64,000 nt of DNA, from NCBI GenBank assembly GCA_030710605.1, contig CP092872.1, positions 95,621,794-95,685,793 on the forward strand, in the 5' to 3' direction. The notes under the pieces were generated by a model. The model was not told the origin of the DNA, searched no databases, and worked only from the letters and a program-made list of their open reading frames with translations. Both the position numbers and the translations under genes were made by a program. Position 1 is the first letter of the stretch, and each line of letters begins with the position of its first letter. Shown one piece after another: positions 5,543-50,717 of this stretch. The stretch comes from Cordylochernes scorpioides. Lineage: Eukaryota > Arthropoda > Arachnida > Pseudoscorpiones > Chernetidae.

Positions 5543-6095
5543 TATATATTATGGATTGTTCTATATCCATAATATATATATGTGTGTTAAGAAAAAAGAC
5601 ATCTCCTTATCGTGTAACTGAGGCTACTGATGGCTTGCGTCATCTATCGGAATAAATATCAACTATTCTCGTTGATTTTTAATTATTTCAGAATTGGCCA
5701 AATACCCATTCTTGATTAATCAAGAAAAGCTAAACACGGACGCGTTTCGGGTTGTTGGCCCTCATCAGCGTGGTGCAAGCTGTACCTCAACGACTAGAAA
5801 TTTGGTCATTCAGGCATCCTTAAAAATCATGAAACGGGTAGTTAAGGCCAGAATTGCGTGAGAACGCGACAGAATGTGAAAAATCTTGATTAATCAAGAA
5901 TGGGTATTTGGCCAATTCTGGAATAATTTAAAATCAACGAGAATAGTTGATATTTATTCCGATAGATGGCGCAAGCCATCAGCAACTTTCAGTTGCACGA
6001 TAAGGAGATGCCTTTTTCTTAATTTATGCATCTTATCCCAGTACAATATCACATTTGTACTATCTTTTCATATATATGTGTGTGTGTGAAAAAAA
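5543..6095. mobile_element. Foldback element, GATGGCTTGCGCCATC family, with hammerhead
   Basis: Inverted arms run from about 5585-5730 and 5880-6045. They share CATCTCCTTATCGTG..., the word TGATGGCTTGCGYCATCTATCGGAATAAATATCAAC, and GGCCAAATACCCATTCTTGATTAATCAAG. A reverse-strand hammerhead (5733-5774) sits between them. Fragments of this family recur at 12838, 16790, 30840, 35700, 36930, 37210 and 49565. Confidence 0.75.
5733..5774 (-). ncRNA. Hammerhead ribozyme, type I
   Basis: On the reverse strand: stem I arm ACCACG (5774-5769), core CTGATGA (5768-5762), stem II with GGG/CCC, GAAA (5748-5745), short CGCG, cleavage triplet GTC (41-39) and stem I return CGTG. All core bases are intact, and stem I pairs 4 bp plus a mismatch. 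The self-complementary ACGCGT around stem III favours a dimeric fold. Confidence 0.65.
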
Positions 6096-6099
6096 TATA

Positions 6100-6420
6100 A
6101 TAAAACGGTCAAGTGTAGATATTAAAAATAAAGAAAGCATAACCTGACCACGAGCACATGAGCTTTTAGATGGCAGAGCGCCATCTAGTGGAACAGAAAT
6201 CAATTAAGCCTGTACCCTGATATTTGGCCAACCCATTTTCTTGATAAATCAAGAAAAGTCAACCAGGAACGCGTTTTGGGCTGTTGGCCTACATCAGCGT
6301 GGAGCAGGCTGTACCTCTAGGCCAAAAATATTTTGGTCCCAGAGGATTCTTGGGAAACCAAGAAATGGGTATTTACGTCCAAAATACGTAAATACGATTA
6401 ACACACATATATATTATAAA
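6100..6420 (-). mobile_element. Decayed hammerhead-bearing element fragment
   Basis: It matches the 9040-9370, 26190-26590 and 38220-38530 family in reverse orientation: GGCAGAGCGCCATCTAGTGGAACAGAAATCAA, the TTGATAAATCAAGAAA palindrome and the GCGTTTTGGGC...CATCAGCGTGGAGCAGGCTGTAC stretch. The ribozyme core is damaged here (CTGATGT and AAAA). Confidence 0.6.
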
Positions 6421-6424
6421 TTAT

Positions 6425-7500
6425 AAAAGACTGCGGCGTGTGATTATAAAACAATACTTAAAGTTACACCGCATAAGTTTCTTTTCTGTGAAAAATCAAT
6501 ATTTTATTTCAAAGAGAAATATTTACTATTTCTAACTTTTTGAATGAAGTATTTTCACCCTTTCATACACATATATATGGCACACTATATCTTGTAAGTA
6601 CAAAAGTAGAACAGCTTTTCACATATGTAGACATGTAGTGTACTTACAGTAAAAGATTAAAACCAACATAAATATTTCACTTAATTCGGATAACAATAAT
6701 GGCAGATTGCAAAAAGGATGTTTTATTTCATATTTAAACATGGTTGTATAAAAATTAAGGTTAGAAAAATAAATAGCACACAATTGTTTGACATTCCTAC
6801 AATGCGAAGATATTTATCATTGCTCTAACAATGTAACAATGGAGACTTAATAAAGTAATTTTGGTTGGAGGGGAATTATGTAAGAAGAACAATTTGAATG
6901 TACAGAACATTCATTGGGCGTCTTTTTAAAGTACTTCGTTTTTGTTCATATATTTACATATTGTACCTTAAATGTATATTTAGATTATTTAAAATTTTGG
7001 GAGTTATTTCTTCGTATGCAGTTCTCTGGTGATTTGATATTAAAGTACAAAGATTTGTGTTTCACAAAAGGGTATGTATATATGTTATAATAAAATATTA
7101 TTTCATTTGAAAATATATTTCATGGATTCAAATATTCTGTTTAAATCTACCACCAGATGTCGGGACTTTCCCTATATAAAACCCATTGTTGTTTTATCCC
7201 AATGGCCGGCTCAAACCATATGTAGTTATGTAAATAATCTTTTGTTTTTCCTTGTTCTCTACTCCCCTTAAGACAGGCAGTACTTTAACCAAATTATGTT
7301 TTATATATATTCCTTAGTTAAAATAAAGAAATCTCTGATCAAAACCATATTTATTATTATTCTTTCAGTATTTATGCCACGACTGCTCAACAAATATCTC
7401 TATTCTCAAAATAATCAGCATCAAGTATTAATTCTATATAGCTCTAATAATCAAAATACAACAGAAATCTAATTATTTTATATAATATATATATTATACA
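6425..7500. repeat. Dispersed repeat, paralogue at 55860-56505
   Basis: Several blocks match the later copy in order: GTTTCTTTTC...TTTTATTTCAA...GAGAAA, then ACCACCAGATGTCGGGACTTTCCCTATATAAAACC...GGCCGGCTCAAACC, then CTCAAAATAATCAGCATCAAGTA. A third partial copy lies at 43580-43700. The short open frame at 7074-7271 has a relative at 56009-56221, but their resemblance follows repeat identity and no domain is visible, so I do not call it a gene. A SINE tail fragment lies at about 6595-6655. Confidence 0.6.
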
Positions 7501-7838
7501 AAAATAACTATAGTTTGTATTACAATTCAATACAGTATTTTGTATGTTTTTCAATTCTCAGTTTCTAGTTCCATGGTATTACCATTTTAAAAATATATAT
7601 ATTTATTACAAAACACATGCTATATCCTAAGTGGATATTTGCGTGTAAATGTGTAAATAATTTTATGTACATAGTTTTTAATACATATACAAATTATTTA
7701 TAGTTTTAAAGAGAGAGTGATTAAATGTATTTAATATCTAAATTATTTAAAATTTTGGGAGTTTTTTCTTCGTATGCAGTTCTGGTGATTTGATATTAAA
7801 GCACAAAAATCTGTGTTTCACCCAAGGGTATGTGTTTA
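6983..7838 (+). repeat. Local direct duplication
   Basis: 6983-7080 and 7738-7838 are close direct copies (TTATTTAAAATTTTGGGAGT...TTCGTATGCAGTTCT...GGTGATTTGATATTAAAG). A second pair, about 7480-7590 and 7845-7940, follows the same order (CAATACAG...TTTTGTATG...CAGTTTCTA). This indicates a segmental duplication inside repeat DNA. Confidence 0.7.
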
Positions 7839-7939
7839 TATATATTATATAAAAACAACTATAATTTGGATTATAAATCAATACAGTGTTTTGTATGGTT
7901 TTACCATTCCCAGTTTCTAATACCATGATATTATCATAT

Positions 7940-8580
7940 GGTATACCATATTATCCAAATGTGCCGTTAACTGTGCGACGTTAGACTGTTAAAAGTGACA
8001 ATTCTAGAATATTTCAGCGATGTAATACTCTGTTGTAATTTGCATATTGTTGTTGTATTGTCTATGCTAATTTACATATCTGCTTATATATCGCAGCTTT
8101 GTTGGATTGGTGTTGGATAGCGGTTGTTGGAAAGGTCAGACCGCTGATAGACGTGAGCTGCTAGTATTTATATATAATGTTATCTAGTTTAATTTCTTTA
8201 ATCTCTTGTCCTTCCTTATTGTTTATAAATTGCTTTAAGTAATAATGGATCTTTGTCATTATCAACCTTCTTTCTCTTCTATAAATACACACTCATGGAC
8301 AAACTTAAGGAAGTTGTACCTTTTAGAGCATGTATATATTATTATTGCATATTTTTAATTATTGTTTTTAAAGGGGAACGTTCCAATTTACATATATGTG
8401 AAATCTACCGTTATATAAGAAAATAAAAAAGTGGTTTATGATTAAAATATGAAACTTCCTTTTATCCATGATTGTAAGTCAAACATGATTCAAACGCGCC
8501 ATCTGTACTCGAAAAGACAAATTATTTAGCGCGTAGGTTTCTTTTTAAAATGAAAAAAATTCTATCTGTCCTTACTAGAA
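7940..8580. other. Unassigned intergenic stretch
   Basis: No gene seen. 8285-8345 holds a fragment of the CTCATGGACAAAACTTAAGGAAG MITE family. The part around 8030-8180 has CATATCTGCTTATATATCGC and is otherwise unrecognised. Confidence 0.4.
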
Positions 8581-8965: not shown

Positions 8966-9039
8966 AGCTTTGATTGAATCAGTTATAGATATTTTATATC
9001 TTTCTCTCTCTCTCAATATATATGTGAAAAAACAATAGA

Positions 9040-9370
9040 AATGTGTAAAGCGTATTTACGCAAGTTTGGCCTTAAATACCCATTTCTTGGTTTTTCAGGA
9101 AACCACTGCGACCAAAAATATTTTTGGTCGCAGTGGTACAGTCTACTCCACGCTGACGAGCGCCAACAGCGCGAAACGCGTTCGTGGATGGCTTTTCTTG
9201 ATTTATCAAGAAATTGGGCTGGCCAAATATCAGGGAACAGGGTAAATCAATGAATAGTTGATTTCTGTTCCACCAGATGGCGCTCTGCCTTCTGAAAAAG
9301 CACATGTGCTACTGGTCAGGAGATGCCTTCTTTATTTTTAATATCAACACCTGACCCACTTATCTTTTAT
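9040..9370 (+). mobile_element. Foldback/hammerhead element, GCAGAGCGCCATCT family
   Basis: It contains a perfect 36-bp palindrome at 9102-9137, a hammerhead at 9147-9188, the TTGATTTATCAAG palindrome and TGGCCAAATATCAGGGAACAG...TTGATTTCTGTTCCACCAGATGGCGCTCTGCCTTCTG. The same order recurs at 38220-38530. It is bordered by ATATATATGTG. Confidence 0.75.
9147..9188 (+). ncRNA. Hammerhead ribozyme, type I
   Basis: Stem I arm TCCACG (9147-9152), core CTGACGA (9153-9159), stem II GCGC/GCGC with loop CAACA (9160-9172), GAAA (9173-9176), CGC, cleavage triplet GTT (9180-9182) and stem I return CGTGGA (9183-9188). All core residues are intact and stem I is a perfect 6 bp. Stem III is only ACGCGT, a palindrome, so efficient cleavage probably needs dimerisation. 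Confidence 0.75.
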
Positions 9371-9399
9371 TTTTTTCTATTATTTTTTCATATATATAT

Positions 9400-9602
9400 A
9401 CGAGGGCCATCACCCCGAAACCATGGTCTCTAGGTGGACGCTTATCAGTTTGCCAAAGCTGGTGTTGTGGCTTTGTCACCGACCCGAGGCCGCTAGTTGC
9501 GGCGACGGTCAATAGATGACGTCAGATTCTGACGTTTATTTTGACGGGAGAAGCGCCCATTGCTTCTATGGATTAATTTCCTCCCGGCAAATTTTCCATC
9601 TA
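9400..9602 (+). mobile_element. Half copy of the GACGTTTATTTTGACGGGAG foldback family
   Basis: It matches the right half of 16240-16605: CCGAAACCATGGTCTCTAGG (ribozyme 3' part), CAGTTTGCCAAAGCTGGTGTTGTGG, the GGTCAATAGATG word and TTTCCTCCCGGCAAATTTTCC. The ribozyme 5' half is lost at an ATATATA junction. Confidence 0.7.
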
Positions 9603-10430
9603 TATATATATGTCATAATATATACCCTTCCAGGAATAATAAAACAAACCTAGAGCCATCCCAGAGAGAGATGGGATGTAAAGTCCGGTCAATTGAGAAA
9701 GCAGCGACATTCCAAAGGGGCGGCAAATGGGGCCCGCCCGTCAACACCTGAGGACTATTTTTGGGCAGTTTTGCGGGGGGCGTGCGACAAACGGCCGTTC
9801 AGCGGTAGCGCTCCCTCTCTCTCGGATGGCTTCCAAATTCCCCTACCAATTTGTGGCGTGATTATTTCCCTTTCCCCACATTATCACTATATTGTCACAT
9901 ATATATATATTTCAACTAATTTTTTTATTAAATTCCCGACGTTTCAAGTGACTCTTTTTCACCTTTCCTAAGGAGCGTAACAGAGAATTACTGAAACGTC
10001 GTGAAGAAAATAAAAGAAAAAATTGGTTGAAGCAAGCTGTGTTTTTCAAGCAAACTTCCAACCAACAAATGATGTCCAGAAATATTCATCGAAGTTAATT
10101 AAATAAAGCAACAAGTTTCTGAGGATGTGTTTATTTTAATTTTTATTGTAATCTTAAGTGTAGTGTATTTGCATATTAATTATGGATATGCAAATGTCCT
10201 GTTTTGCATAATGCTTTTCAGATAATTTTGTATATAAATAGCGACATTTTTAGCTACCAGTAGTCAGTCAATTTATGTAATAAAAGAGATTACTAGAGTC
10301 CGTTTCTGCCTCAGCCTCGACACCTCACTCTTGGCTACCTCCCAACCTATAAGGATAGAACATTAAGCTTTCGGACATTACAGCCCTTCTACAGGAGTTC
10401 ACAAATGTAAAATAATGAAACGTTGTTATC
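9603..10430. other. Unassigned, with LTR-like promoter
   Basis: No protein gene seen. 9660-9850 is moderately GC-rich and unrecognised. 9930-10010 is a small foldback ending GACGTTTCA/TGAAACGTC. 10233-10284 carries TATAAATA, initiator TCAGT (10264-10268) and AATAAA (10279-10284), a spacing seen in short LTRs; no matching second LTR was found. Confidence 0.4.
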
Positions 10431-10507
10431 TTAAAGATAGAGGCTGCCTGGCCGGCATTCATAGTTATTCAAATTAAAGACACTTCAGCCAGTAAATCTT
10501 TTTATTG

Positions 10508-10549
10508 CCTCGACGTTTCGACAAAAAATCTTTTATACTCGTCAGGAGC
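10508..10549 (-). ncRNA. Hammerhead ribozyme, weak stems
   Basis: On the reverse strand: core CTGACGA (10545-10539), an A/T stem II, GAAA (10519-10516) and C-GTC before GAGG. Core bases are intact. Stem I pairs only about 3 bp and the base of stem II is mutated relative to the 20219 copy. Confidence 0.5.
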
Positions 10550-10589
10550 GAACAAAAATTAAAACATTTTTTAAAGCGAAAAAAAAAAA

Positions 10590-10985
10590 AGTATAAATGT
10601 GATATTGTACTGGGATAAGGTTAATAAATTATGAAAAAAGGCATCTCTACAGGGATAAGGTTCATAAATTATGAAAAAAGGCATCTCTACTGGGATAAGG
10701 TTCATAAATTATGAAAAAAAAGGAATCTCTACTGGGATAAGGTTCATAAATTATGAAAAAAAGGAATCTCTACTGGGATAAGGTTCATAAATTATGAAAA
10801 AAAGGCATCTCTACTGGAATAAGGTTCATAAATTATGAAAAAAAGGCATCTCTACTGGGATAAGGTTCATAAATTATGAAAAAAGGCATCTCTACTGGGA
10901 TAAGGTTCATAAATTATGAAAAAAGGCATCTCTACTGGGATAAGGTTCATAAATTATGAAAAAAGGCATCATTACTGGGATAAGG
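10590..10985 (+). repeat. 40-bp tandem repeat
   Basis: About 9-10 copies of a unit with TACTGGGATAAGGTTCATAA then ATTATGAAAAAAGGCATCTC. Copies differ mainly in A-tract length (40-42 bp). The unit is the terminal sequence of the neighbouring foldback family, so the array arose by local amplification of a mobile-element end. Confidence 0.85.
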
Positions 10986-11109
10986 TGGCGATAGATGGCG
11001 CAAGCCATCAGCAAATTTTAGTTTCACGATAAGGAGATGCCTTTTTCATAATTTGGTAAAGCGTTAAAAATTATTTTAAGGCTGAAAAGTTGTGATTTAC
11101 TGGCCGAAT

Positions 11110-12125
11110 TATCTTTAATTTGAAGAAATGCCGTTAGACACTGATTGTTGATACTAGTTAAGATTGAAATGAAAAGAAACTCCACATTTCCAGAAAACTG
11201 TTGTCTTATTTAATTTACATACAGCAGATTGACATCTATTACATCTATCAAAGTTATCAAAACACTCAGTAAGGTAAAAAACAATTCCTCGATAAAGAGA
11301 CATTTTCTACCATCGTAAATAAAAAGAACAACGCTATTTACTTCCCCAAGTAGATAATAATAAAAATAAAGAAGAAGACAACACTTTACTAAAGATCTTT
11401 TCCACAAGATGAATGGATTGACGCCATCTTAATTTTGGCATTGACCGGAAGTGGACATTGGCGTCGACCAATCATGAACTCTAATGGCCCCAAAATGGAA
11501 GTCACGTGATTAACGAGCTGTAACATGGCTATATCAGACGGTTATTACAGCCCCCGTGGTGTAGATCATACCATTTGTACCAACTCAAATATTATAACAG
11601 AAGCACTTAGATTATATCTTGTACTGGACTCTTGATAGTTTCCTTCTCAATTGCAGCTCCACTTTTCTACGTCGTTACTTATTATTATTTTTTTTTTACA
11701 GTAATTTACTCACTTTGTGGAAATTGTTATTTTATATCATCCTTATATCATTTTACCTTCATTATTTTATTTTCACTTTTTTTAAAAATGATTTTTTAGC
11801 TAAGCACACATTTATTATAGTTGTTGGTATCTTTTTTTTTTCGACTCCCAAAAAATCTCTCTACTGTAAAGGTATTTTATCAAAGATGGATTATATAGTA
11901 CGAAATATAAGAATTTATGTTTAAGATGATTTTAAAAATAGAAATTATAAGAAATAGTTGCTGAAACTATGCGCTATTGTCTCTACAAGCAGACTCGGGT
12001 CAGTGTCAATGCTAGAACACCAGTTTTCACAATTCCAGAACGCTTACCTGTAGACAATGGTTTTGGGCTATAAACTTAATCCATTGGAGACCTCTACAGC
12101 CCGTCTTGAAATGATAAGAGTCATA
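11110..12125. other. No gene seen
   Basis: AT-rich sequence with a short block of moderate GC around 11420-11600 (CACGTGATTAACG). Open frames here are T- or A-run driven and show no domain. Confidence 0.4.
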
Positions 12126-15772: not shown

Positions 15773-15956
15773 TGTTCAAATCAATAAGAGCTTGAGGGAT
15801 AAGTATCTTTCAAATAAATTTATTTCAAGCTTTCGGGCACAACCGCCCTTCGACAGGGGCGTAATATATTTTTCCTGTCGAAGGGCGGTTGTGTCCGAAA
15901 GCTTGAAATAAATTTATTTGAAAGATACTTATCCCTCAAGCTTATTGATTTGAACA
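15773..15956. mobile_element. Short foldback with hammerhead-like core
   Basis: The ends TGTTCAAATCAATAAG and CTTATTGATTTGAACA begin a nearly perfect inverted repeat that continues through GAGGGATAAGTATCTTTCAA to CCTGTCGAAGGGCGGTTGTG. The forward strand gives CTGTCGA (15875-15881), a stem, GAAA (15897-15900) and GCTT, with TTTC/GAAA as stem I. The core has one change from CTGANGA, so activity is doubtful. 10360-10400 holds a relative. Confidence 0.7.
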
Positions 15957-16239
15957 ACAAAAAACTTGAATGTGATACAACTATCCAGAATTCTCTCCAT
16001 CAGAAATATAATTTGCATAATGCCCCCTGTTTAAGGGTACTGAATGCTATTATATTTTACTATATTGTTGAGATTTAAACAAACACAGGTATAATGGTGG
16101 TTTAACATTTGCCAAGAGGGGATATTGATCTATAGAAATAAAGGTCACTTTCCCCGTCAAAAAGATGCAAAAACAAAGCCCGACCTCAATTTTTTTTTGA
16201 TCGAACTAATAACATATTATAGCAGATATATATGTGTGG
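15957..16239. other. Repeat fragment, otherwise unassigned
   Basis: 16105-16200 is a decayed fragment of the GACGTTTATTTTGACGGGAG family (GATATTGATCTATAGAAATAAAGG...CCCCGTCAAAA). Nothing else is recognised. Confidence 0.4.
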
Positions 16240-16605
16240 AAAATTTGCCGGGAGGAAATTGATCCATAGAAGCATAAGGCGCCTCTCCTGTCAAAATAAA
16301 CGTCAAAAACTGACGCCATCTATTGACCGTCGCCGCAAACTAGCGGTCTCGGGTCGGTGACAAGGGTTGGGGATTGTGAAGATTCCATTAGATCCCGTGT
16401 GGATCTCTTGAAATAAAGTCCGCCCTAGACTGACGAGGGCCATTAGCCCGAAACAATGGTCTCTAGGTAGACGCTTCTCAGTTTGCCAAAGCTGGTGTTG
16501 TGGCTTTGTCACCGATCCGAGGCCGCTAGTTTGCGGCGACGGTCAATAGATGGCGTCAGGTTTTGACGTTTATTTTGACGGGAGAGGCGCCCTATGCTTC
16601 TATAT
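16240..16605. mobile_element. Foldback element with central hammerhead
   Basis: The left arm (about 16265-16365: GAAGCATAAGGCGCCTCTCC...CGTCGCCGCAAACTAGCGG) and the right arm (16500-16600) are inverted copies around a hinge. The hinge contains the best hammerhead in the window. Half copies with only the right arm occur at 9400 and 37980. The left edge follows ATATATATGTG. Confidence 0.8.
16424..16467 (+). ncRNA. Hammerhead ribozyme, type I
   Basis: Stem I CCTAGA (16424-16429), core CTGACGA (16430-16436), stem II GGGC/GCCC with loop CATTA (16437-16449), GAAA (16450-16453), minimal stem III C-AATG-G, cleavage triplet GTC (16459-16461) and stem I return TCTAGG (16462-16467). Every conserved core base is present and stem I is a perfect 6 bp. 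The very short stem III matches the minimal hammerheads reported in Penelope-like elements. Confidence 0.8.
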
Positions 16606-16644: not shown

Positions 16645-16925
16645 TAGGGTCAGATTTCTTTGGTGGTTGAGGTACAGCCTGCACCACGCTAATGAGGGCC
16701 AATATTCTGAAACGCGTACGTGATTAGCTTTTCTTTATTTATTGATAAAGGGTATTTGGACAATATTCTGGAGTAATTTCAAAAAATCAACGACTAGTTG
16801 GTATTAATTCCGATAGATGGCGCAAGCCATCATCTACTATAAATTACATTATCAGAGAGACAACCCTAAGAAATACCTTTTCTTAATTTAATTACCTGAA
16901 CCCAGTACAATATTTTACATTCATA
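16645..16925 (+). mobile_element. Decayed hammerhead element fragment
   Basis: It has GGTACAGCCTGCACCACG, CTAATGA (core mutated from CTGATGA), GAAA (16709-16712), GCGTACGTGA, then the ATCAACGACTAGTTG and GATAGATGGCGCAAGCCATC words and a TTAATT...CCCAGTACAATATT end like that of 5543-6095. Confidence 0.65.
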
Positions 16926-17524: not shown

Positions 17525-19705
17525 TAGAAGCCATGATAATCATGGTGGGTAGAAGTTGGCAAACTGCTTTTACTGTAAGTGCACCACATGTCTACACATG
17601 TAGAAAGAAGTTCAAAATTTGCACTTACAAATTTACAGAGTCCATTTTGGTTACTTGCACTCACTGGGGGAAGTTGAACCTCTGTAAAAATCGGGATCCA
17701 TTGAAAGCAGTTCAAAATTTGCACTTACAAATTTACAGAGTCCATTTTGGTTACTTGCACTCACTGGGGGAAGTTGAACCTCTGTAAAAATCGGGATCCA
17801 TTGAAAGCAGTTCAAAATTTGCACTTACAAATTTACAGAGTCCATTTTGGTTACTTTCACTCACTGGTGGAAGTTGAACTTCTGTAAAAATCGGGATCCA
17901 TTGAAAGCAGTTCAAAATTTGCACTTACAAATTTACAGAGTCCATTTTGGTTACTTGCACTCACTGGGGGAAGTTGAACCTCTGTAAAAATCGGGATCCA
18001 TTGAAAGCAGTTCAAAATTTGCACTTACAAATTTACAGAGTCCATTTTGGTTACTTGCACTCACTGGGGGAAGTTGAACCTCTGTAAAAATCGGGATCCA
18101 TTGAAAGCAGTTCAAAATTTGCACTTACAAATTTACAGAGTCCATTTTGGTTACTTTCACTCACTGGGGGAAGTTGAACCTCTGTAAAAATCGGGATCCA
18201 TTGAAAGCAGTTCAAAATTTGCACTTACAAATTTACAGAGTCCATTTTGGTTACTTGCACTCACTGGGGGAAGTTGAACCTCTGTAAAAATCGGGATCCA
18301 TTGAAAGCAGTTCAAAATTTGCACTTACAAATTTACAGAGTCCATTTTGGTTACTTTCACTCACTGGGGGAAGTTGAACCTCTGTAAAAATCGGGATCCA
18401 TTGAAAGCAGTTCAAAATTTGCACTTACAAATTTACAGAGTCCATTTTGGTTACTTGCACTCACTGGGGGAAGTTGAACCTCTGTAAAAATCGGGATCCA
18501 TTGAAAGCAGTTCAAAATTTGCACTTACAAATTTACAGAGTCCATTTTGGTTACTTTCACTCACTGGTGGAAGTTGAACTTCTGTAAAAATCGGGATCCA
18601 TTGAAAGCAGTTCAAAATTTGCACTTACAAATTTACAGAGTCCATTTTGGTTACTTGCACTCACTGGGGGAAGTTGAACCTCTGTAAAAATCGGGATCCA
18701 TTGAAAGCAGTTCAAAATTTGCACTTACAAATTTACAGAGTCCATTTTGGTTACTTTCACTCACTGGTGGAAGTTGAACTTCTGTAAAAATCGGGATCCA
18801 TTGAAAGCAGTTCAAAATTTGCACTTACAAATTTACAGGGTCCATTTTGGTTACTTGCACTCACTGGGGGAAGTTGAACTTCTGTAAAAATCGGGATCCA
18901 TTGAAAGCAGTTCAAAATTTGCACATACAAATTTACAGAGTCCATTTTGGTTACTTGCACTCACTGGGGGAAGTTGAACTTCTGTAAAAATCGGGATCCA
19001 TTGAAAGCAGTTCAAAATTTGCACATACAAATTTACAGAGTCCATTTTGGTTACTTGCACTCACTGGGGGAAGTTGAACTTCTGTAAAAATCGGGATCCA
19101 TTGAAAGCAGTTCAAAATTTGCACATACAAATTTACAGAGTCCATTTTGGTTACTTTCACTCACTGGGGGAAGTTGAACCTCTGTAAAAATCGGGATCCA
19201 TTGAAAGCAGTTCAAAATTTGCACTTACAAATTTACAGAGTCCATTTTGGTTACTTGCACTCACTGGGGGAAGTTGAAATTCTGCAAAAATCGGGGTCCA
19301 TTGAAAGCAGTTCGAAATTTGAACTTACAAATTTACAGAGTCCATTTTGGTTACTTGCACTCACTGGGGGAAGTTGAACTTCTGCAAAAATCGGGATCCA
19401 TTGAAAGCAGTTCAAAATTTGCACATACAAATTTACAGAGTCCATTTTGGTTACTTGCACTCACTGGGGGAAGTTGAAATTCTGCAAAAATCGGGGTCCA
19501 TTGAAAGCAGTTCGAAATTTGAACTTACAAATTTACAGAGTCCATTTTGGTTACTTGCACTCACTGGGGGAAGTTGAACTTCAGCAAAAATCGGGATCCA
19601 TTGAAGCAATTTTTATTCAGAAAAAAAAGGTTCCAATGCGGGAATCGATCCCGGGTCGTTGCTATCAGAAATCAACAGTTTATACCACTCATCTACCAAG
19701 TAATA
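17525..19705 (-). mobile_element. tRNA-derived SINE with massively expanded core
   Basis: Reverse orientation. The tRNA-like head lies at 19632-19705, with B box GGATCGATTCC (19651-19641) and A box-like TAGATGAGTGG (19695-19685). The 3' tail (17525-17610) matches the tails of the single-copy SINEs at 24695 and 31905, including the CTTACAGTAAAAGCAG and ACCATGATTAT words. In those copies the core between head and tail is one segment of about 98 bp. Here it is present about 20 times. The head would recruit RNA polymerase III in an active copy. Confidence 0.85.
17611..19607 (-). repeat. 100-bp satellite derived from SINE core
   Basis: About 20 head-to-tail 100-bp units, very uniform. On the + strand each runs TTCAAAATTTGCACTTACAA ... 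TTGAAAGCAG. The reverse complement aligns with 32003-32100 of the SINE at 31905. Variants are local: CACATAC replaces CACTTAC from about 18920, and a two-unit (200-bp) alternation with GGGGTCC/TTCGAAATTTGAAC runs at 19260-19560. Open frames in it are by-products, since 100 is not a multiple of three. Confidence 0.95.
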
Positions 19706-22265: not shown

Positions 22266-22379
22266 TAATGAAACCCCATTCTGTCGTTAAAATTGATCAT
22301 TACTGAATATGGAGATCAAACATCTATCTCTGAAATACTGTTATTACATATTTACAAGTTTTTAATTTTTAATTAAAAA

Positions 22380-37840: not shown

Positions 37841-37849
37841 TATAGTTCA

Positions 37850-38190: not shown

Positions 38191-38219
38191 TTCTCTATAT
38201 TCTTTGTCGTGTCTAAATA

Positions 38220-38530
38220 TAGCAATAAATATTTAAAATGGTATATCCTGGAGAACCACCAGTGGTTCAGCCTACTCCACGCTGACGAACGCCAAAAAAG
38301 CGCGAAACGCGTTCGTGGATGGCTTTTCTTGATTTATCAAGAAATTGGGTTGGCCAAATATCAGGGAACAGGCTAAATCAATGTTTAGTTGATTTCTGTT
38401 CCACCAGATGGCGCTCTGCCTTCTGTAAAGCACATGTGCTCCTGGTCAGGATATGCCATTTTTAATATTGATTTCAACACCTGATCTTTTTATCTTTTAT
38501 TTTTTCTTTCGTTTTTTTTTTTTCATAGCA
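38220..38530 (+). mobile_element. Hammerhead element, GCAGAGCGCCATCT family
   Basis: It matches 9140-9370 closely: ribozyme, TGGCTTTTCTTGATTTATCAAG, TTGGCCAAATATCAGGGAAC, GTTCCACCAGATGGCGCTCT and ACCTGATC...TTTATTTTTTC. The left side carries ACCACCAGTGGT, the worn counterpart of the 9102 palindrome. Confidence 0.75.
38276..38319 (+). ncRNA. Hammerhead ribozyme, type I
   Basis: Stem I TCCACG (38276-38281), core CTGACGA (38282-38288), stem II CGC/GCG with an A-rich loop, GAAA (38304-38307), CGC, triplet GTT (38311-38313) and stem I return CGTGGA (38314-38319). Core and stem I are perfect; stem II is one pair shorter than at 9147. Confidence 0.7.
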
Positions 38531-38619
38531 ATAAATATTTAGGCACAACAAAGAAGTCATCAAAGTATATAGAAATTAACGAAACAATCTTAAAAGTTTC
38601 ACTTTGATATTTCTGTACT

Positions 38620-39005
38620 CAACATTGGGATTCTGGTAGAAACTTTTCTTTGATGTTCTTTGATTATGATGGAGTATAAATGCATGTGGCTTATTTCATA
38701 TCTATACGAATCATTGCGAAATAAACTGTGCAAAGATTTCTAGCAAATCGATATTTGACTATTGTTACTACCGAAACCCAGCTCTAAAGAAACAATCTTG
38801 AATGTTTCACTTTGATGAGCTGGGTTTCGGTAGTGGACCACAATAGTAAGAATAATCAAATATCGATTTGCTAGAAATCTTTGCACAGTTTATTTCGCAA
38901 TGATTCGTATAGATATGAAATACGCCACATGCATTTCAACTCCATCAGGATCAAGAACATCAAAGAAAGGTTTCTAACCAGAATCTCAACATCCCAATAG
39001 TTAAT
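38620..39005. mobile_element. Long foldback element
   Basis: Near-perfect inverted arms of about 170 bp (GGGATTCTGGTAGAAAC...CTACCGAAACCCAGCTC and GAGCTGGGTTTCGGTAG...GGTTTCTAACCAGAATCTC) meet at 38785-38820. The hinge holds GAAAC..GTTTC and TTGATGAGC. No coding capacity. Confidence 0.8.
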
Positions 39006-40080: not shown

Positions 40081-40330
40081 AGATGAAAGAATGTCCTCTA
40101 ATACCAGTTCCTGCAAATTCAGACCAAAGCCAATATGTATACCAATTAAAACACCTTTTTGGCAAATTTTTCCGATTTCATAGCGTTTAGTAGGATGTTA
40201 TGGAGTTGTGAACACCTCTGTACTGATAAGGGCCTTTGCCCGAAACTATGGTATACAATTTGTTGAATTTTACTTGAAATTCCCAAAACTGGTGTTGTGG
40301 ATCTTCTTCCAGTCGTCTCTGTGTTCAACA
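40080..40330 (+). repeat. Hammerhead-bearing repeat, second copy
   Basis: Related to 23641-23790: CCAGTTCCTGCAAATTCAGACCAAAGCC..TATGTATACCA, then the ribozyme-like site at 40219-40257. Confidence 0.6.
40219..40257 (+). ncRNA. Hammerhead ribozyme with one core change
   Basis: Stem I TGTA/TACA, core CTGATAA (40223-40229; G to A), stem II GGGC/GCCC with loop CTTT, GAAA (40242-40245), C-TATG-G and triplet GTA (40251-40253). GAAA and stem II are perfect where the 23710 copy is damaged. Confidence 0.5.
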
Positions 40331-40900: not shown

Positions 40901-42700
40901 GCGCATAAAATAGTTCATTTTTCTAAAGGTAGATGGCACATTTTTACCGTAGACATTTTACAATAAACACTCGTTTTTTTAAATGAATATATATCGTATA
41001 TATAAATCGTATAATGACTTAAAGCCAAAATATTGATAAAAACTAATAATTCATCTAAGTTGGTGTCCATTTATAAACGAGGGTTGCACTGTAATACACA
41101 TATCGTGTGGGGCAAACAAACACATTTGCATATATACGAATCTCCTTTCTCTACTAGCTTCTCAAACTATTTGTAACTATTTATTACTATTTATAAGTGA
41201 GTATAGAAAATAAAAATGATAATTATGTATAGAAATATATATCACATCATCATTATTTTACCGTTAGTAAAGAGAGAGCGGGGAGAATCTATTTAAATTA
41301 TAAATGGGGAGGGTGAAATAGAAAATTGGAAAAAAACAATATCAGTTGATATAAGGCAAGGTGTCACGTGATGACAAATTGCATACCCCCAAGGGCTATG
41401 TAACTCAAGATAGATGGGGACTAGGTGCCCTACAGGGAACACACACATTAATATACTCCCCCTCTGTATTTAGTGGAAGATAACGCCATGTTACATAGGA
41501 TGTCTTGAATATGACGGAATTGGCAATATTGGCTGACCCATTCAACTGACCAAAGAGAAGGAAGAGAATTGGAAGATTCTGATTTGAGAAAAGCCAATAT
41601 GATCGATCTTTTTTGCATACTACTCATAAATGCCCCGGGATGCAGAGGACGTTAAGGTAAATGCCCATTTTACAAGAAGAATGTCGAAGTGGTCGTAAAG
41701 ATTCATTTTAAAGAAAGAATATCAAAGAATTTGTAAGGGAAAAGAACACATGACAACATAAATGTACTGAGTTTAAAAAAATCAATTAAGAAACCATTAT
41801 ATTCTCGTGGCTTTCACTCTAATCTGTTTCGTTTTGTGGGTAAAGTTTTAAACTAGCAATAGCGCGTTCACTGGCTGGAAAATCTTCACTGGTTACATTA
41901 GCGCCTCTGCGCAAAGCTTTTACATTTTGTGACTCATTGGAAATTTCCTTTTGTTCGGGGCTTCCAGTCTAACCCACCCACTGTGCCGTTCGGTCTAGTC
42001 TACCCAATATGCGGTTTCCACCTATTATAGTTTTCTAGCTTTGTCTAAACTACCCATTGTGTGAATTCCTGTCAAAACTTTCCATTTTGCAGCTTTGTCT
42101 AACCTATCCATTGTGTGACTTCCTGTCAAAACTACCCATTTTGCAGCTTTGTCTAACCTATCCATTGTGTATTTTTTTTATAACCTAGTCATTTTGTGTA
42201 CATTCTAATCGATCCAATTCTTGGTGTAATGGGTTTGTGAGTTTTCTAGTCTTACCTACCCATTTTGTGAATTCCTACCAACCAATTCTACTTTTATTTC
42301 CATTTAAATTATTTTTTGAAGATTTCTAGCTAAACACATTATTGTGGGCTTTCAAGTAAACTTATTCTTAATTTTGAGGATATTTTCAGAAATATAACCT
42401 ATTTTATTACAAATCGAGTTTATATTGGCACCCCAACTAGTCAAAATTCAAAATAATTATCGCGACAACAGAGCTCATAAATACCTCTATGCAAATGTTG
42501 ATAATTTAACTAAACATTACACAATTGATAGAAAATATGTGTGTTATGCATTTTATATATCGATGTACTGGGGTGAAAATCAAAATGCATTTTAAAGAAG
42601 CTTTTACTCATACCCCTATGCAGAGCGTAAAGGTGATAATAAACCTGTTTGCAAAGTTTCAGCGAATTCAGACAAAATGACAACCTGTAACATTGTTGCA
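40901..42700. other. No gene seen; minor local repeats
   Basis: 41280-41760 has mixed composition without domains. 41990-42260 contains loosely tandem copies of GCAGCTTTGTCTAACCTATC CATTGTGTGA and CTTCCTGTCAAAACTACCCATTTT, roughly 57 bp apart. Nothing coding is recognised. Confidence 0.4.
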
Positions 42701-42714: not shown

Positions 42715-42915
42715 TGGATGATTTTCGCCCGGGGAGATTGTGAGACGCCCGTGTCTCAAGTGTAACGCGCGGCTTGCCGCGAAAAGGGATGAGATCCTAG
42801 AAAAAGATGGTCGTTTAGCCCATCGAAATATCGGAAATAAAAATATTATTTATTGAATCCAAGATGTGCCCTTTATGAACAAATATAACAATATGTATTG
42901 CTCTATTTTCAGAAT
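42715..42915 (+). repeat. PLE-like terminal fragment
   Basis: GATGGTCGTTTAGCCCATCGAAATATCGGAAATAAAAATATTATTTATTGAATCC followed by GTATTGCTCTATTTTCAGA. The same order (stem, GAAATATCGGAAATAAAA, then TTGCTCTATTTTCA) is found at the end of the PLE remnant at 50700-50785. Confidence 0.55.
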
Positions 42916-43929
42916 ATATATATATATATATATGTGATAACTTTTATAATATAAATACATAATTCCAGGAGCGGGCGTGAACATAATATATTTCTTATAG
43001 TTGAGAGCTGAAATGAGTTTCTGATTGACTTGGAATAAATTTATTTCTATTTTAAGTTTCCAATATGAGTGCAGACGACTTTAAAAAAAAAAAGGGAAGA
43101 AAGGCGTTCGATGCGTGCGGTCCCAGAGTAATTTCCGGTCATGGGAGCTTATTATTGGTCGGTTATGCACGCACTTCCGTTTCTGTGTCCAATCGGGAAG
43201 GCCGTAGAAAGCCCAGAGGCTCACTTACTTCTGATATAAATGATCAGGCATCGGCAATTAATTTGCTCAGGACCTATCCACACATGGCTTCTGTATTTAC
43301 ATATAGCGCCACACAGGTATGCAACACTTTTCCCAGTTTTCGAAATATAAATGCAAATTCGAAAAAGGGGTCAATTTATATAAATTATATATTGAGAAAT
43401 TCTAACTGTCCTTTTTGAAAAATCGTCTGCCCTAATATATATATTATGACCAGGCTCACATGAGATTTTCTATCAACACCTGACCTATTTTTTATTGTGT
43501 TTTTTTCACATATATATTATATAAAAATATATTTAAATGAAAATAAATATGGTTCTAGTGAACAACTCTGTGAAGTCGACTGCAAGATAGCGCGGCTTTA
43601 AACGATATAAACCCATTGTTGTTGTTTTTTTTCTTTTGGCCGGCTCAAAACTTTTAGTAAATATGTAAATACGTAATCTTTTATTTTCTTTATTTTTCAC
43701 ACCTTAAATCAGGTATCAATTTTCTCACAAATTATATCTCTTATATATTTTTAAATATTATATAAAACAACAAATGAAGGTAGTTTCGATTTAATATAAA
43801 CATGATCCATGTTCTGATATGTAGAGAGTGAAATAATACACAGTACTAGCCCATGGTGCAGTTCAAACCTCGAATCTTTCACTGTAATAAATATCAATCT
43901 GGTGATATTTATTTATAAGATCGATTATA
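42916..43929. other. Unassigned region
   Basis: (TA)n at 42917-42934. A 117-codon frame (43065-43418) starts with an ATG and a basic peptide but shows no domain. 43580-43700 is a copy of the GGCCGGCTCAAA repeat of 7074 and 56009. Confidence 0.4.
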
Positions 43930-44398: not shown

Positions 44399-44432
44399 GA
44401 AGTTTACACGGTTTACTCCACAGCACGGGAAC

Positions 44433-44711
44433 TCAGTAAGGCTTGTACGCGGCGAAGTGATGTCTCCGAGCGAACCGTCCACGCCGTGTGTACGACATGC
44501 CGGGGAAGTTGACGCGCTTCGTCGTCACCCGGATGTGGCGGTCGTTGAGCGCCGTGTTGTTCTTGGAACGTATGGCGCGCGTGGCCTCTTCGGGGGTTTC
44601 GAACTCCACGTAGGCGAACGCCTTCGAGAAACCGTTGGGATGGCGCGGGATGGTCACCCGCTTCACCTTACCGCAGTCCTGGAAGTGGGACTTGAGCTGC
44701 GTCTCCGTCAC
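44433..44711 (-). CDS. Exon 2 of PABPN1-like gene
   Basis: 93 codons including TGA at 44435-44433. It begins at the acceptor CCCCAG|GTGACGGAG and encodes the rest of the RRM, including RNP1, and the C-terminal Arg/Tyr-rich tail ending KPY. Its GC content is far above the surrounding repeats, as expected of a constrained exon. Confidence 0.85.
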   Translation of the reverse strand: MTETQLKSHFQDCGKVKRVTIPRHPNGFSKAFAYVEFETPEEATRAIRSKNNTALNDRHIRVTTKRVNFPGMSYTRRGRFARRHHFAAYKPY

Positions 44712-47700
44712 CTGGGGCCCAACCTCTTCATTTGCATACTAAGCGACTAGGGCGATATGTAAATAAGTTATCCTTCATTATATTAGGACTAATTGTTAAA
44801 GGTTTTATATAAACTTTCAATAAAGAAATAACAATACTTTTCTTGCGTGTATGTTCTTGTGACAAGCAAGAGTTCGGGCAAAGTTGCTTTTCTACGCACC
44901 TGGGGCCCAATCCCTTGATTTGCATACCAAGCGACTAGGGTGATATGTATAAATAAGATATCCTTCATTATATCAGGGAAGATTGTTAATGGTTTTTTAA
45001 ATAAGCTTTCAATAAAGAAATATAAGAATACTTTTCTTGTGCGTATGTGTTTTGTAACAAACACAAGCAAGCGTTCTGGCAAAGTTGTTTTTCACTCTAC
45101 GCACTTATTAAAGATATGCAAATAAAAATAAATTATTTACAAAAGTGAACAAACGTTTCTATAAATAATTCAGCTTCTCATAAGTTTGATAAGCTCGTAG
45201 AAGATCGTCTTTGCTTGAAAGTTTGCGTGTTTGTCACAATAGAAACTTGCTTAATCTTCTAATAAGCCACTAGTTACTAAAAGATTGGCATATATTATAG
45301 TGTGATGCGGTCAAAAATTGAAATAAACGGATATTGTAAATGTATGGAAAAGCTCTCTAGGTAGCAGCTCCCTTACTTCACATAATTTTATATGACCTAG
45401 CTATACTGTTTACTGGAGAGTACTTCTCAAGGATAGGCCATTTTCTTTTTTGACAACTGCTTGTTTAAAAAATCCACGAAGTGCGAAAACAAAGCTGGTT
45501 GTACACTACACTCATAGCACCCAGCACTTACACTCATGGACAAAAGGAAGTCGAAAGTCTTTGATGTCGCCGGTTGTCTCTTTTTTTAAAGTAGAGATAG
45601 CCAATTTTTTCATACTTGGTTATCTCGCGTGTCTTCAATAAAGTTCACTGTAATATCTTTCAGAGTTATTGTCTTAATCCCGATATACATGGTAAAAGGT
45701 ACAACTTCCTTAAGTTTTGTCCATGAGTATATAAACTTAAAAGGGATTCAAATTAAATTATCATTTCAAAAAATTCGAAACTAATATAAACGCGTTTGAT
45801 TCTTTTTAAAAATAAACAATTTCAACTGCCCTTACTGCAATGGAAATATTTATGGGAGGGTCTGGCTCATCAGTGGTGAACCCTCCCAGCGGTTTCGCCA
45901 GTTTAATATACCATACCGCTGTTATAGAGATGGCGCACTAATGCATCATAATATAAATTATCATTTGTAAATCTTTTTATTCATTTTCACTGCTCCTGTC
46001 CTGGTTTTCTAGTGTCACCATATTTCTCTATCTTGAATTTTCCTCTTTATTTCTTCATAGCTTCCCATCAGTCCAATTCTCTCTACGCTTCTCTTTCCAT
46101 CCATTTCACCCTCTAGATGCATCAGTGTATAGGATATAAATATGAATCTAACATTTCACCCACCAGTTTGATGATCAGCTCCAATCTTCAATCAGAACAA
46201 ACGTATAAACAGAGATTAAACCAATACAATAGCTGGCGGATGGTCCAATTCCATCACAATGAGGATTCCAGGCTTTTCTCCGAATGACTCTCATTGTATT
46301 TAAATCCTCTTTCCAAGGATTCCGTGTTGGATATATATGGTAAGATCATATCGCATTGAGGTTTCCAGTACAATGATTTACCTTGGAATAACCTCATTCC
46401 TTCACTTCAAGGTTTTATATATGATATTATTCGACATATAAATATATATATGATTTACTCAATTGAAAATAAGAATTTATATGTAAATATCTATTCCACG
46501 AATTCCTTATTCTAATCGTGGCGTGAATAGTTTGAAAGGTTCCCTTCAATATATATTACGAACTTTCAGTTTTGGTAAGCGCCTACGATTTTGAGCGTTC
46601 TATATGAATTAAAGACAATGCAAAATTTAGAGATAAGAATAACGACTCTATGGACATTCTGTTAAATATCTAAGGAGACAAACAGAATGATCTATTAATA
46701 TATTGGATATTGTTGCTATTTTTTAATCATTTTGTATTACAACAGTATTTATAGAAAACGCCATTTTTCTTGTTGGAGTTTTATATTTGGGTTAAAAATG
46801 ATTTACTTTTTGATGATTTCGACGTTTCAGCGAAAGGTGTCGCCCTTTTCAAATAAACCTTTTTGATAAGACTCATTTATAGTCAAATCAGATCATTACC
46901 AATTTGGCTACGAATAAGCATTATCAAAAAAGGTTTCCTTATAAAGGTTTGCAGTGGTTTGCTGAAACTACGCAGTATGCAAAAAGAGTTTAGGTAAATC
47001 CACTCATGGACAAAACTTAAGGAAGTGGAAAATCTATAAAGTCGCCGGTCATATATTTTTTTTTTTTTGAAAGAGACAGAGGCAATTTTGTTGACACTTG
47101 GTTATCTCGTGTGTCTTCAATAAAGGTCACTGTAATATCTTTCAGAGTTATTGTCTCAATCCCGATATACATGGTAAAAGGTACAACTTCATTAAGTTTT
47201 GTCCATGAGTGGATATCTCTGGAGAGAAAAATCTCTGGACCAGCTCCCATATTTACTAACTCTAACATAGCGTGAAGTGTTTATGAAACATGACTAAGTT
47301 ATATATATTAGGGTAAAGTTAGATTAGGTTATGTAACTTTAGGTTAGTTATCTTGAAGATGGAGGTTGCCTATAGCCGGTATTCTTCAAAGTAGAAGACA
47401 CTTCGGTCAAAATTAATTCATTATTTTTTTCAACGTTTCGCCACAATTTTTTGTCCCCTTTAGGAGAAATTTAAAATAAAACATTTTTGGCAAGGTGTAT
47501 TTTAATAATATATTTATAACGCCTTGCCAAAATGTTCTTATTTCAAACTTTTTTCCTGATTAAGATATAAAAAAGATTTTTTTGCGTCAAAACGTCTAAA
47601 AAATGAAAAATATTATGACCAAAGTGTATTTTATGTAAAAAAAAGAACTACTGTTGTGGTCTTGTAGATTAGCTTAGGTTAGTTTAGATTAGAGTTGATA

Positions 47701-47988: not shown

Positions 47989-49120
47989 CTTCTATCTTGG
48001 TTGTTGGAGAGATGTTTTCTTGATCAGCCCGGGGTAACAAATGCCTACGTGCCTCCACGCGATCCCCTCCTTCCTATATACGATTTTTGGGGGAAAAAAC
48101 TTGATCTTTTATTGATTCAACAAAAATAGTTTTTGATATCTTAAAATTGCGTTTAGATGCAATTATCCGTTTTAAAATTCATAAAACAATTTATTTCATT
48201 TGATCAAATATTAGCAGAATATGCAAATCAGATGGGTGAATAAGCCACACTACCAGTTTTGACAAATTCATACAATAATCTGTGTACCAGGGTTTAGGAT
48301 TATGGTTCTTTATCAGTACAGAGGGGGCTTGGATTTTGAATGAAAATTTGTATGTGAACAATGTATATTATAAAATATTTGGAATAATTAGACATTTCAA
48401 TCAATGAGTGAATAGTATAAAGCAATAAAGGTTAATTGATTCTAGAAGTTGTTCTTGTCATCGTTTCAGGTATCAATTATTTTCTAAGGAATTATAGGAA
48501 GATGTCGAGGGGACATTGGTTATAATTGCAGAATTGACTTCAGTTTCGACTTGAGAAGTAAATAGGAGAAATGATCTTGACACCTTTTCCTCCAATCTTG
48601 TTATGACCAGACCATGATACCATTGTTGCATACTCACTACACATTGATATAGAAGGGAAATCTCCTCATTGAGTTGTGGGAGAATTTAAAATGAAATTTT
48701 TATTTAAAAAAAAAATAATAGATATAAATAAAAAAAAATCGCTAAGGGGAAATTTTCTTTTTACGCCCCCGAAAGCTTATATTGCAGTGATACAAAGACA
48801 AACTCTTCCCTCAGCGATTTTTTATTTATATTTTTATACCGAAAGGATTATAATATTAACAAATCAATAGATATGTAGCCCTACGAAGTGGCACTTCTTA
48901 ATTTAAAAATGCAGGAAAACCCCAAATTGACAATATAAAAATTGAGATTCTGGTACCTATGAATTATATCAGAAGGAATAAGGCTCTAACAACAAGTTGT
49001 AATATAAGCTTTTAAAAATAAAATTAGAATTTATAGTGTTCTCTTGCTCGGTCGATGGTACAAGGATCACTCCAAAGGTTTTTGCAATCACTTATTTTTT
49101 ATTAAATCTGCAACTTTCAA
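47989..49120. other. Upstream region of PABPN1-like gene, otherwise unassigned
   Basis: The first 100 bases probably hold the promoter and 5' UTR. 48240-48330 is a decayed copy of the 23641 ribozyme repeat (CACTACCAGTTTTGACAAATTCA...ATCAGTACAG). No other gene is seen. Confidence 0.45.
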
Positions 49121-49124
49121 ATTT

Positions 49125-49328: not shown

Positions 49329-49344
49329 TATGCAAATATGGTAA

Positions 49345-49837
49345 CTATCGCCTTTATACTATGTTGTAGAGATATTTTGATTCATATTTATATAATGTGA
49401 GATTTGAGCGATTAGAAATATTGATGTTGGAGTTATTAAAGATACCTTATCTCAAAGTACTTCTGAAATCAATAACATATTTATTATTTATTACTTCAAT
49501 TTAAGATAGACGAATTCTATCAATTCTTTATGCAAATTAACATATATCATATTGATAAAAATAAGTAAAAGACATCTCCCGATCGTACAACTGAATATTG
49601 CTGATGGTTTGCACCACCTATCAGAATAAATATTAAACTGATCGTTTTTTTTAAAGAAATTTGGAAAAAAAAGATCAGTTAGTAATTATGTCGATAGATG
49701 GCGTCAGAAAAATGAACTTTTAATTTCATATTTCACAGATGCTTTGTAAAATTTAGTTTAGAATATACTGCGTGTGTATATGTAAACTATAATTCAAGAT
49801 AAATTAAATACCTTAGAAATATATATATATATATATA
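49345..49837. other. Repeat fragment, otherwise unassigned
   Basis: 49565-49640 is a GATGGCTTGCGCCATC-family end (CATCTCCCGATCGTACAACTGA...GATGGTTTGCACCACCTATC). (TA)n lies at 49820-49840. Confidence 0.4.
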
Positions 49838-49879
49838 TATATTATTTAAAAATGCCTATTTTGGATCAAAAAGTTTTAT

Positions 49880-49922
49880 TTCCGATATTTCGTGTGGCAA
49901 CTCGCCAAACTTCTTCGGGGAA
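49880..49922 (-). ncRNA. Hammerhead-like motif in left PLE repeat
   Basis: Mirror of 50675-50717: stem I TTCC/GGAA, core CCGAAGA (T to C), 7-position stem II with one mismatch, GAAA and triplet ATC. Confidence 0.5.
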
Positions 49923-50149
49923 CAAGATTGTTTTGAATAGCTCGCGTATCATTTCACGAGTATGTACAACTGCTATAATTTTTTTTTTATTATTTCTAAA
50001 ATCTACAAAATGCATGTTTATAAATATAATTATTAATAATAAAGTGATATATACAATATTAATATATAGCGAATAAATAAATATATACATTTAAAATAAA
50101 AGAATTGAAAATCAGTAATTTGTTATATATATAAATGTATAGTAGTGGG

Positions 50150-50656
50150 CTATATGGTTTTAAATTGTAAGTATAATTGAGGAATGTCTATTTTTCGATT
50201 GATACTGTTTTTATCTTCTATTGAGGTCCAGCTTTCTAGAAAAAGTCTTGAATGTTTGTCCTTGATATTTTGATATACTATTTCAGTTGAGTCAAAATTT
50301 GGTATGTGGTCCTGTTTCAGTGCGTGATCTACTAAAAGGGAAAGAGGGCTATAGTTTTGAAGGGCTGTCCTGTGTTGATTGGTTCTTTCTTCTAGAGTTT
50401 TCCCTGTCTCTCCTATGTATGTAGCTGGGCAAGATCGGCACGGGATTCTGTAAATGAGGTTGGATTTTTGACTGTTGTTTGTGTTATGTTTGGTATCGGG
50501 ATGGCGGAGAAGTGTTTTTAAGTTGGATGGTGTCTGGTATATCGTCTTGATGTTGTACTTCTTGAGGGCTCTACTGATTCTTTCGATGCCGTAGCTGTAC
50601 GGAAGTGTGCAATATGATTTGTGAGATTGGCTATTGGAAGGTAAATGATACGCGAG
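50150..50656 (-). pseudogene. PLE C-terminal region with GIY-YIG endonuclease
   Basis: 168 sense codons open from 50656 to TAG at 50152-50150, with no start codon of its own because it is a 5'-truncated remnant. The linker LPYSYGIERISRALKKY matches the region between reverse transcriptase and endonuclease in Penelope elements. The GIY-YIG domain follows: LIY (67-69) with a CRSC pair, YIG (80-82) and the conserved R91 in LEER. E141 in FLESW is in place for the catalytic glutamate. This endonuclease nicks target DNA during retrotransposition. No stop or frameshift interrupts it, so the loss is from truncation. Confidence 0.8.
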
Positions 50657-50674
50657 CTATTCAAAACAATCTTG

Positions 50675-50717
50675 TTCCCCGAAGAAGTTTGGCGAGTTGC
50701 CACACGAAATATCGGAA
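50675..50717 (+). ncRNA. Hammerhead-like motif in right PLE repeat
   Basis: Stem I TTCC (50675-50678), core CCGAAGA (50679-50685; T to C from CTGAAGA), stem II GTTTGGC/GCCACAC with one mismatch, GAAA (50706-50709), triplet ATC (50711-50713) and stem I return GGAA (50714-50717). Confidence 0.5.

Follow-up and report, generated by a model that had tools for sequence, protein, structure and literature searches.

Type I hammerhead ribozymes in animal retrozymes and minimal hammerheads in Penelope-like elements have already been described, the coral Acropora millepora alone carrying 16 hammerhead families (PMC7229834). In the sections of the cited papers drawn on here, animal retrozymes consist of type I hammerhead repeats in tandem and are expressed as circular RNAs, Penelope-like elements being proposed as their mover (PMC7229834), and hammerheads of the minimal kind, often dispersed, have also been linked to Penelope-like elements (PMC7761336). 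Penelope elements usually carry inverted pseudo-long terminal repeats (pLTRs), for which the favored origin is self-priming on an antisense template (PMC3846280), and a Penelope-like protein from Anolis cuts and extends both target strands in vitro (PMC11167929). The present analysis concerns hammerhead-bearing elements in a stretch of 64,000 nucleotides from the pseudoscorpion Cordylochernes scorpioides (GenBank assembly GCA_030710605.1, contig CP092872.1, positions 95,621,794 to 95,685,793 of the forward strand), hereafter the window, in whose own coordinates all positions are given. It was picked for being striking and, as one window, says little about the whole genome. Within it, hammerhead structure with compensatory change recurs in several families of elements, together with truncation, target duplications, a preference for TA tracts and, in some copies, an inverted 3' end on the 5' side. 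The model proposed here, to which a rough probability of 0.55 is given, is that these are dispersed, mostly decayed, short type I hammerhead retroelements of several families, devoid of an open reading frame (ORF), which lie beside Penelope-like elements and would be moved in trans by their machinery.

The core-motif pattern CTGANGAN{4,30}GAAA occurs in 15 rows in the window, as compared to a mean of 3.83 and a largest count of 9 in 100 shuffles, none of which reached 15. All eight sites for which a first-pass annotation of this DNA had claimed a full core carry CTGANGA...GAAA in the pattern search; two of the remaining seven rows are overlapping readings of these sites, and five fall at four further places (2918, plus strand; 27924, 55101/55106 and 57614, minus strand), a number close to chance expectation. 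A strict scan, demanding a stem I of at least 4 bp, a stem II of at least 3 bp, U16.1 and a base other than G at position 17, is passed by four of the eight (5739-5768 on the minus strand; 9153-9182, 16430-16461 and 26496-26525 on the plus strand), where the same 58.2 kb, dinucleotide-shuffled 200 times, gave a mean of 0.015 sites and a maximum of 1. Because three of the four belong to family F1 and one to F2, they count as two independent events, not four. Departures visible by eye mark the other named sites, with A.C at the stem II base at 38282, an additional A ahead of the core and a stem I mismatch at 37993, an additional A ahead of stem II at 20228 and a weak stem II at 10516.

A covariance model, R1, was built from nine window copies of families F1, F2 and F4 (alignment A4), and its E-values are rough owing to a short calibration. 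Its search of the window returned 13 matches at E<0.05, the nine training copies and four others, the next three matches lying at E 3.2-4.3. The copies that pass the strict scan score highly, namely the F1 hammerheads of type I at 9140-9193 (plus strand; predicted cut after 9182; 76.9 bits), 26483-26536 (plus strand; predicted cut after 26525; 77.4 bits) and, in F1b, 5728-5781 (minus strand; predicted cut after 5739 on that strand; 74.5 bits), and the F2 hammerhead at 16417-16472 (plus strand; predicted cut after 16461; 63.7 bits). They are joined by the F1 hammerhead with A.C at the stem II base (38269-38324, plus strand; 69.8 bits), the F2 hammerhead with the additional A and mismatched stem I (37978-38035, plus strand; 47.8 bits), decayed F1 hammerheads at 16676-16729 (plus strand; 66.4 bits) and 6257-6310 (minus strand; 62.7 bits) and an F4 hammerhead with G12 changed at 23705-23759 (minus strand; 50.2 bits). 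Outside the training set, R1 found an F4 hammerhead with G8 changed at 40211-40264 (plus strand; 32 bits, E 1.4e-6), a decayed F1 hammerhead at 37040-37092 (minus strand; 25.4 bits, E 1e-4), a decayed F4 hammerhead at 48274-48329 (minus strand; 22.6 bits, E 6e-4) and an F2 hammerhead at 9400-9428 (plus strand; 16.8 bits, E 0.026), the 5' side of which is lost to an element truncation falling inside the hammerhead. The six or more decayed copies announced earlier are borne out by the R1 matches beginning at 6257, 16676, 23705, 40211, 37040, 48274 and 9400, and alignment adds decayed F3 copies at 31262 (minus strand), 47463 (minus strand) and 20400 (plus strand).

In the nine-copy alignment, 87.5% of cells are paired, as against 18-38% in slid versions, a value reached by none of 500 shuffles, and two-sided change is present in 18 cells (no shuffle of 500; at most 5 in slid versions), such compensatory change affecting five of the six stem I pairs. 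F1 alone (seven copies) is weaker, with 87.4% paired (21 of 500 shuffles) and 4 two-sided cells (70 of 500). For all 13 copies, in an alignment that is fitted to R1, 83.7% of cells are paired and 29 are two-sided (0 of 500 shuffles each), with 9 two-sided pairs (62 of 500 shuffles) and up to 12 two-sided cells in slid versions. In hammerhead core numbering, C3 and U4 are present in 12 of 12 copies, A6, A13, A14, A15.1 and U16.1 in 13 of 13, G5 in 11 of 12, A9 in 12 of 13, G8 in 11 of 13 and G12 in 9 of 13; position 7 (N7) takes all four bases among these 13, and every one of them has A, U or C, never G, at position 17. A type I core with three stems and an open stem I is found in F1, F2 and F4, and in F3 by alignment only. 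Judged from sequence, the core pattern and covariation of F1, F2 and F4 are those of hammerheads formerly under structural constraint, and the central observation of the first-pass annotation, that these are real hammerheads, is confirmed. Single-sequence fold z-scores at seven sites range from -0.61 to -3.44, most being unremarkable, and do not alone make the case. Two structural candidates were rejected: an alternative in which CGUU pairs with the core GACG, as in F1 and F3 folds, needs a C at position 7, at odds with the variation in F1, F2 and F4, and a self-complementary stem III is no general rule, since 9 of the 13 copies are palindromic and 4, that at 16430 among them, are not. An exact scan for the F1 core in bacterial and archaeal genome contigs and viral contigs gave no matches.

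Four families were recognized. The seven F1 copies form two subfamilies; F2 is represented at 16214-16603, 37932-38200 and 9400-9605 and by a minus-strand remnant at 11985-12103; and F4 comprises, besides its three R1 matches, a hammerhead remnant at 26629-26690 (plus strand) placed by alignment only, R1 having no match there up to E 10. F3 is known from five copies in alignment A5 and one more remnant, stem III being ACGU in all five. Its minimal hammerheads are those at 20205-20270 (minus strand; stem III A-CG-U, fold z -3.44, no Rfam hammerhead match) and 10495-10560 (minus strand; weak stem II), both resting on the core pattern and the F3 alignment, and the alignment places remnants at 20385-20448 (plus strand, in the other arm of the foldback that holds 20205-20270), 31212-31278 and 47425-47480 (both minus strand). 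With 13 hammerheads of F1, F2 and F4 type and five of F3 type, relic density in the window is locally high. The earlier count of at least four unrelated families stands as to the number, while their unrelatedness does not, F2 and F4 being weakly similar downstream of the hammerhead. That the ribozyme is the best-conserved part holds for F1, where mean pairwise identity over the seven copies is 0.77 in the hammerhead versus 0.35-0.60 in six flanking bins. No long ORF was noted in F1-F4 copies, only some of which were scanned against Pfam, one of these (8978-9253) giving no match.

The layout of the elements, whose ends were partly set by hand, is the second line of evidence. The F1b element at 5587-6022 (minus strand) is a foldback in which both arms (5587-5725/5884-6022) are 3'-end sequence, and it folds as a rod with the hammerhead in the loop (-247.7 kcal/mol, z -26.0). 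The F2 foldback at 16214-16603 (plus strand; arms 16266-16363/16506-16603) likewise folds as a rod with the hammerhead in the loop (-250.8 kcal/mol, z -21.6), its left arm being an inverted copy of the 3' end known from 9473-9621. In the F3 foldback at 20173-20478 (minus strand) the hammerhead lies inside both arms, and F1 copy A (9016-9399, plus strand) has 26-nt inverted ends, 9016-9041 being the inverted repeat of 9374-9399. When 22 copies were compared with random placements, arms were clear (matched by at most 1 in 100) in B_F2, D1_F1b, F3b, PLE and P1 and marginal in A_F1 (2 in 100 as good) and P3 (3 in 100), so that the description of all elements as foldback or truncated is right for five clear cases, and goes too far for 15 of the 22, which are indistinguishable from random placements; for one of these 15, F_F1b, BLAST gives an inverted match of 52 nt (E 4e-5). 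Within a single insertion, divergence between the two arms is 7% in F1b, 5% in F2 and 1% in the Penelope-like copy. With such divergence in F1b and F2, and with most copies decayed, the suggestion that the elements are active in this genome is not sustained.

Proximity to TATATA tracts, which had been remarked on before, is borne out, as 15 of 44 element ends lie no more than 30 bp from a TA tract versus a random mean of 3.3, a count reached in none of 5000 trials, although tract sharing between neighbors makes the ends partly dependent on one another. Of 14 copies, 2 are flanked by direct repeats of 14 bp or more, versus 3 of 1500 random places. One is the 17-bp repeat (38219-38235/38525-38541) around F1 copy C (38219-38541, plus strand), the other measures 14 bp and lies in simple AT/GT sequence, and the remaining 12 copies have no clear one; a target duplication longer than 4 bp, which is a retrozyme trait, is therefore seen in one or two copies. 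A 12-bp direct repeat (26270-26281/26473-26484) that resembles a target duplication surrounds an insertion of ~190 bp immediately 5' of the F1 hammerhead at 26483. A 40-bp tandem array at 10608-10986 adjoins an F3 copy and resembles the F1b element's 3' arm.

The Penelope-like element itself is a 5'-truncated copy at 49831-50765 (minus strand) with inverted ends (49831-49954/50643-50765) and a partial ORF for a GIY-YIG endonuclease (50150-50656, minus strand), the domain scoring 19.9 bits against a cut-off of 22.6 (E 9e-4). This ORF has two database matches, both from Cordylochernes scorpioides, at 99% (a protein named GIY-YIG) and 69%. A degenerate minimal hammerhead with one core base changed can be made out in its arms by eye only. 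Further pieces resembling a Penelope-like element lie at 22364-22627, 42824-42925 and 51676-51799, and no hammerhead was scored in the Penelope-like copies.

The model would proceed as follows. Read-through RNA would be cut by the hammerhead; where stem III has a single pair and is self-complementary, as in F3 and the Penelope-like copy, cutting would probably require a dimer. Element RNA would then be reverse-transcribed and inserted in trans at TA-rich sites by the Penelope-like endonuclease and reverse transcriptase (RT), and foldbacks could result from self-priming, or where synthesis of complementary DNA (cDNA) sets out from the element's 3' end at each side of the broken target. The inverted ends, which are alike in F1b, F2, F3 and the Penelope-like copy, and the shared TA targets suggest, without proving, mobilization by Penelope-like machinery. 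The more specific proposal, that a Penelope-like protein inserts ORF-less hammerhead elements at TA tracts leaving head-to-head foldbacks, and that several families have spread without tandem arrays, is tentative and may well prove wrong.

Several observations weigh against this reading. In the nine-copy alignment, the number of pairs with two-sided change was matched in 36 of 500 shuffles and that of further pair types in 391 of 500. The Rfam scan proposed by the first-pass annotation gave no hammerhead match at gathering score in the window, and what emerged at some sites was weak and below threshold, namely HH9 at 38266-38333 (25.8 bits), 9137-9202 (24.4) and 5719-5784 (19.1; gathering 52) and RF00163 at 26490-26531 (19.4 bits; gathering 34); up to E 10, there was no Rfam hammerhead match in 16400-16500, which holds the site at 16430, or in 20180-20480, which holds that at 20228. 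Clear arms are confined to five copies, and P1-P3, among the 22 tested, are without a scored hammerhead. BLAST found no similarity of the Penelope-like ends to F1, F2 or F3, so that the link to Penelope-like elements is one of layout and target preference. Foldback hairpins also lie outside the R1 hammerhead copies, at 15789-15942, 38660-38954 and 56684-57055. In vitro, hammerhead cleavage was dispensable for insertion, with no reads ending at the cut site (PMC11167929, in the portion used here), an argument against the ribozyme being required for the insertion step itself. Rfam was not retained as the only judge, as it misses the structurally faultless site at 16430, which is backed by the window's own model and by covariation, and sub-threshold Rfam microRNA matches were set aside, any long hairpin being judged to score there.

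Among other explanations, the one that survives best, unlikely as it is, holds that these are scattered pieces of ordinary animal non-LTR (long terminal repeat) retrozymes, whose tandem units are transcribed, cut, circularized and reverse-transcribed, the foldbacks being incidental. The type I hammerhead, units a few hundred nt long and a low GC content (between 0.25 and 0.41 in 2-kb windows over the first 58 kb) fit what PMC7229834, as excerpted here, describes. Moreover, five neighboring hammerhead pairs (A-E) each lie on one strand, with predicted cut sites ~246, 257, 289 and 529 nt apart by hand count in pairs A-D, the F4 partner in pair E being placed by alignment only. However, the two-sided chance of such agreement is 0.06 for pairs chosen after the fact, and neighboring hammerheads mostly differ in family. 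The 3' end of F2 does occur twice ~320 nt apart (37838-37879 and 38152-38200), like consecutive units, and could be one tandem remnant; yet no tandem array of a hammerhead unit exists within the window, the 17-bp target duplication marks the F1 element at 38236 as a separate insertion beside F2, and inverted ends are absent from the described retrozyme layout. A second possibility, clearly improbable, is that foldback DNA transposons, or miniature inverted-repeat transposable elements (MITEs), captured hammerheads. Long inverted arms, TA targets and the presence of mariner-type transposase remains (21080-21964, plus strand; HTH_48, Transposase_1) would agree with such an origin, but arm length is inconstant within F1 (139 nt in D1 and 26 nt in A, with other copies showing no clear arms), 5' truncation and a 17-bp flanking repeat at one copy are foreign to it, and the constant terminal inverted repeats with constant short target duplications that define such transposons were not found. 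Chance motifs or some other conserved hairpin are hardly credible and were rejected, since the lack of Rfam support, the mostly unremarkable fold z-scores and the weak covariation of F1 alone are outweighed by a strict scan whose count greatly exceeds that of shuffles, stem I pairs that change on both sides, R1 matches, free variation at N7, exclusion of G at 17 and the conservation of the F1 hammerhead above its flanks.

The remainder of the window holds other repeats. An LTR retrotransposon occupies 925-5545; its 300-nt ends are 99% alike, and it contains ORFs for DUF1759 and integrase. The integrase ORF (2494-4062) has 32 database matches, 22 from Cordylochernes scorpioides, with identities reaching 96% on a portion of the query, and, like the GIY-YIG ORF, it points to this pseudoscorpion or a near relative as the source of the DNA. 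A Twister-P1-like ribozyme at 30629-30683 (minus strand; 38.3 bits, gathering 67.2, E 7.6e-5) is followed by ~330 nt ending in a GAA-rich tail and is perhaps part of a short RTE-derived element, twisters being reported at the 5' end of RTE elements (PMC7761336, in part). A U4 small nuclear RNA-like sequence at 41759-41918 (minus strand; 32.3 bits, gathering 46) is perhaps a pseudogene, and an RNA-recognition-motif ORF at 44433-44738 (minus strand) is possibly a retrocopy. Tandem repeats comprise a 100-bp array of 20 copies at 17603-19605 and a 117-bp satellite of ~49 copies at 58229-64000, reaching the window end.

The mover of animal retrozymes is unproven, Penelope-like elements being the leading candidate (PMC7229834, as excerpted). 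If the model proposed here is true, shared inverted ends and TA targets would allow that question to be addressed through counts of element ends and target sites, and the foldback layout would be a genomic signature tying retrozyme-type RNAs to Penelope-like machinery. The first-pass annotation had seen a whole class of small ribozyme-bearing elements; several such families of retroelements are indeed present, but the class had already been described. A search of open-licence literature found no paper joining pseudoscorpions and ribozymes, and absence from print is not claimed. Set beside known systems, as far as the consulted portions of their descriptions go, F1 resembles the amphibian satellite hammerheads (PMC7229834) in its very short stem III and palindromic loop; those satellites differ in being tandem salamander repeats of 330-350 bp, whereas 4 of the 13 window copies are without the palindrome. 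The SMalpha SINE-like (short interspersed element-like) and W elements of Schistosoma (PMC8490949) are similar as ~335-bp elements with a type I hammerhead, although they belong to a flatworm and a foldback layout goes unmentioned in the part of that source used here. With metazoan non-LTR retrozymes the window elements share type I hammerheads, a length of a few hundred nt, low GC content, several families per genome, target duplications longer than 4 bp and Penelope-like elements alongside. However, retrozymes are tandem and have circular RNAs, while the window elements, known from DNA alone, are dispersed, some of them foldback, and lie at TA tracts; lacking a tandem layout in the window, they are not classed as retrozymes. 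Penelope-like elements (PMC3846280, PMC11167929 and PMC7761336) are matched in inverted ends, clear in five of the 22 copies, in 5' truncation and in the minimal stem III of F3 and, by eye, of the window's Penelope-like copy, and the putative F3 hammerheads fit the minimal, dispersed Penelope-like type. F1-F4 differ from them in having no recognized RT or endonuclease ORF, and the hammerheads of F1, F2 and F4 are fuller than minimal. It is thus the combined layout, of ORF-less, dispersed hammerhead elements sharing inverted ends and TA targets with the Penelope-like copy beside them, that may be new.

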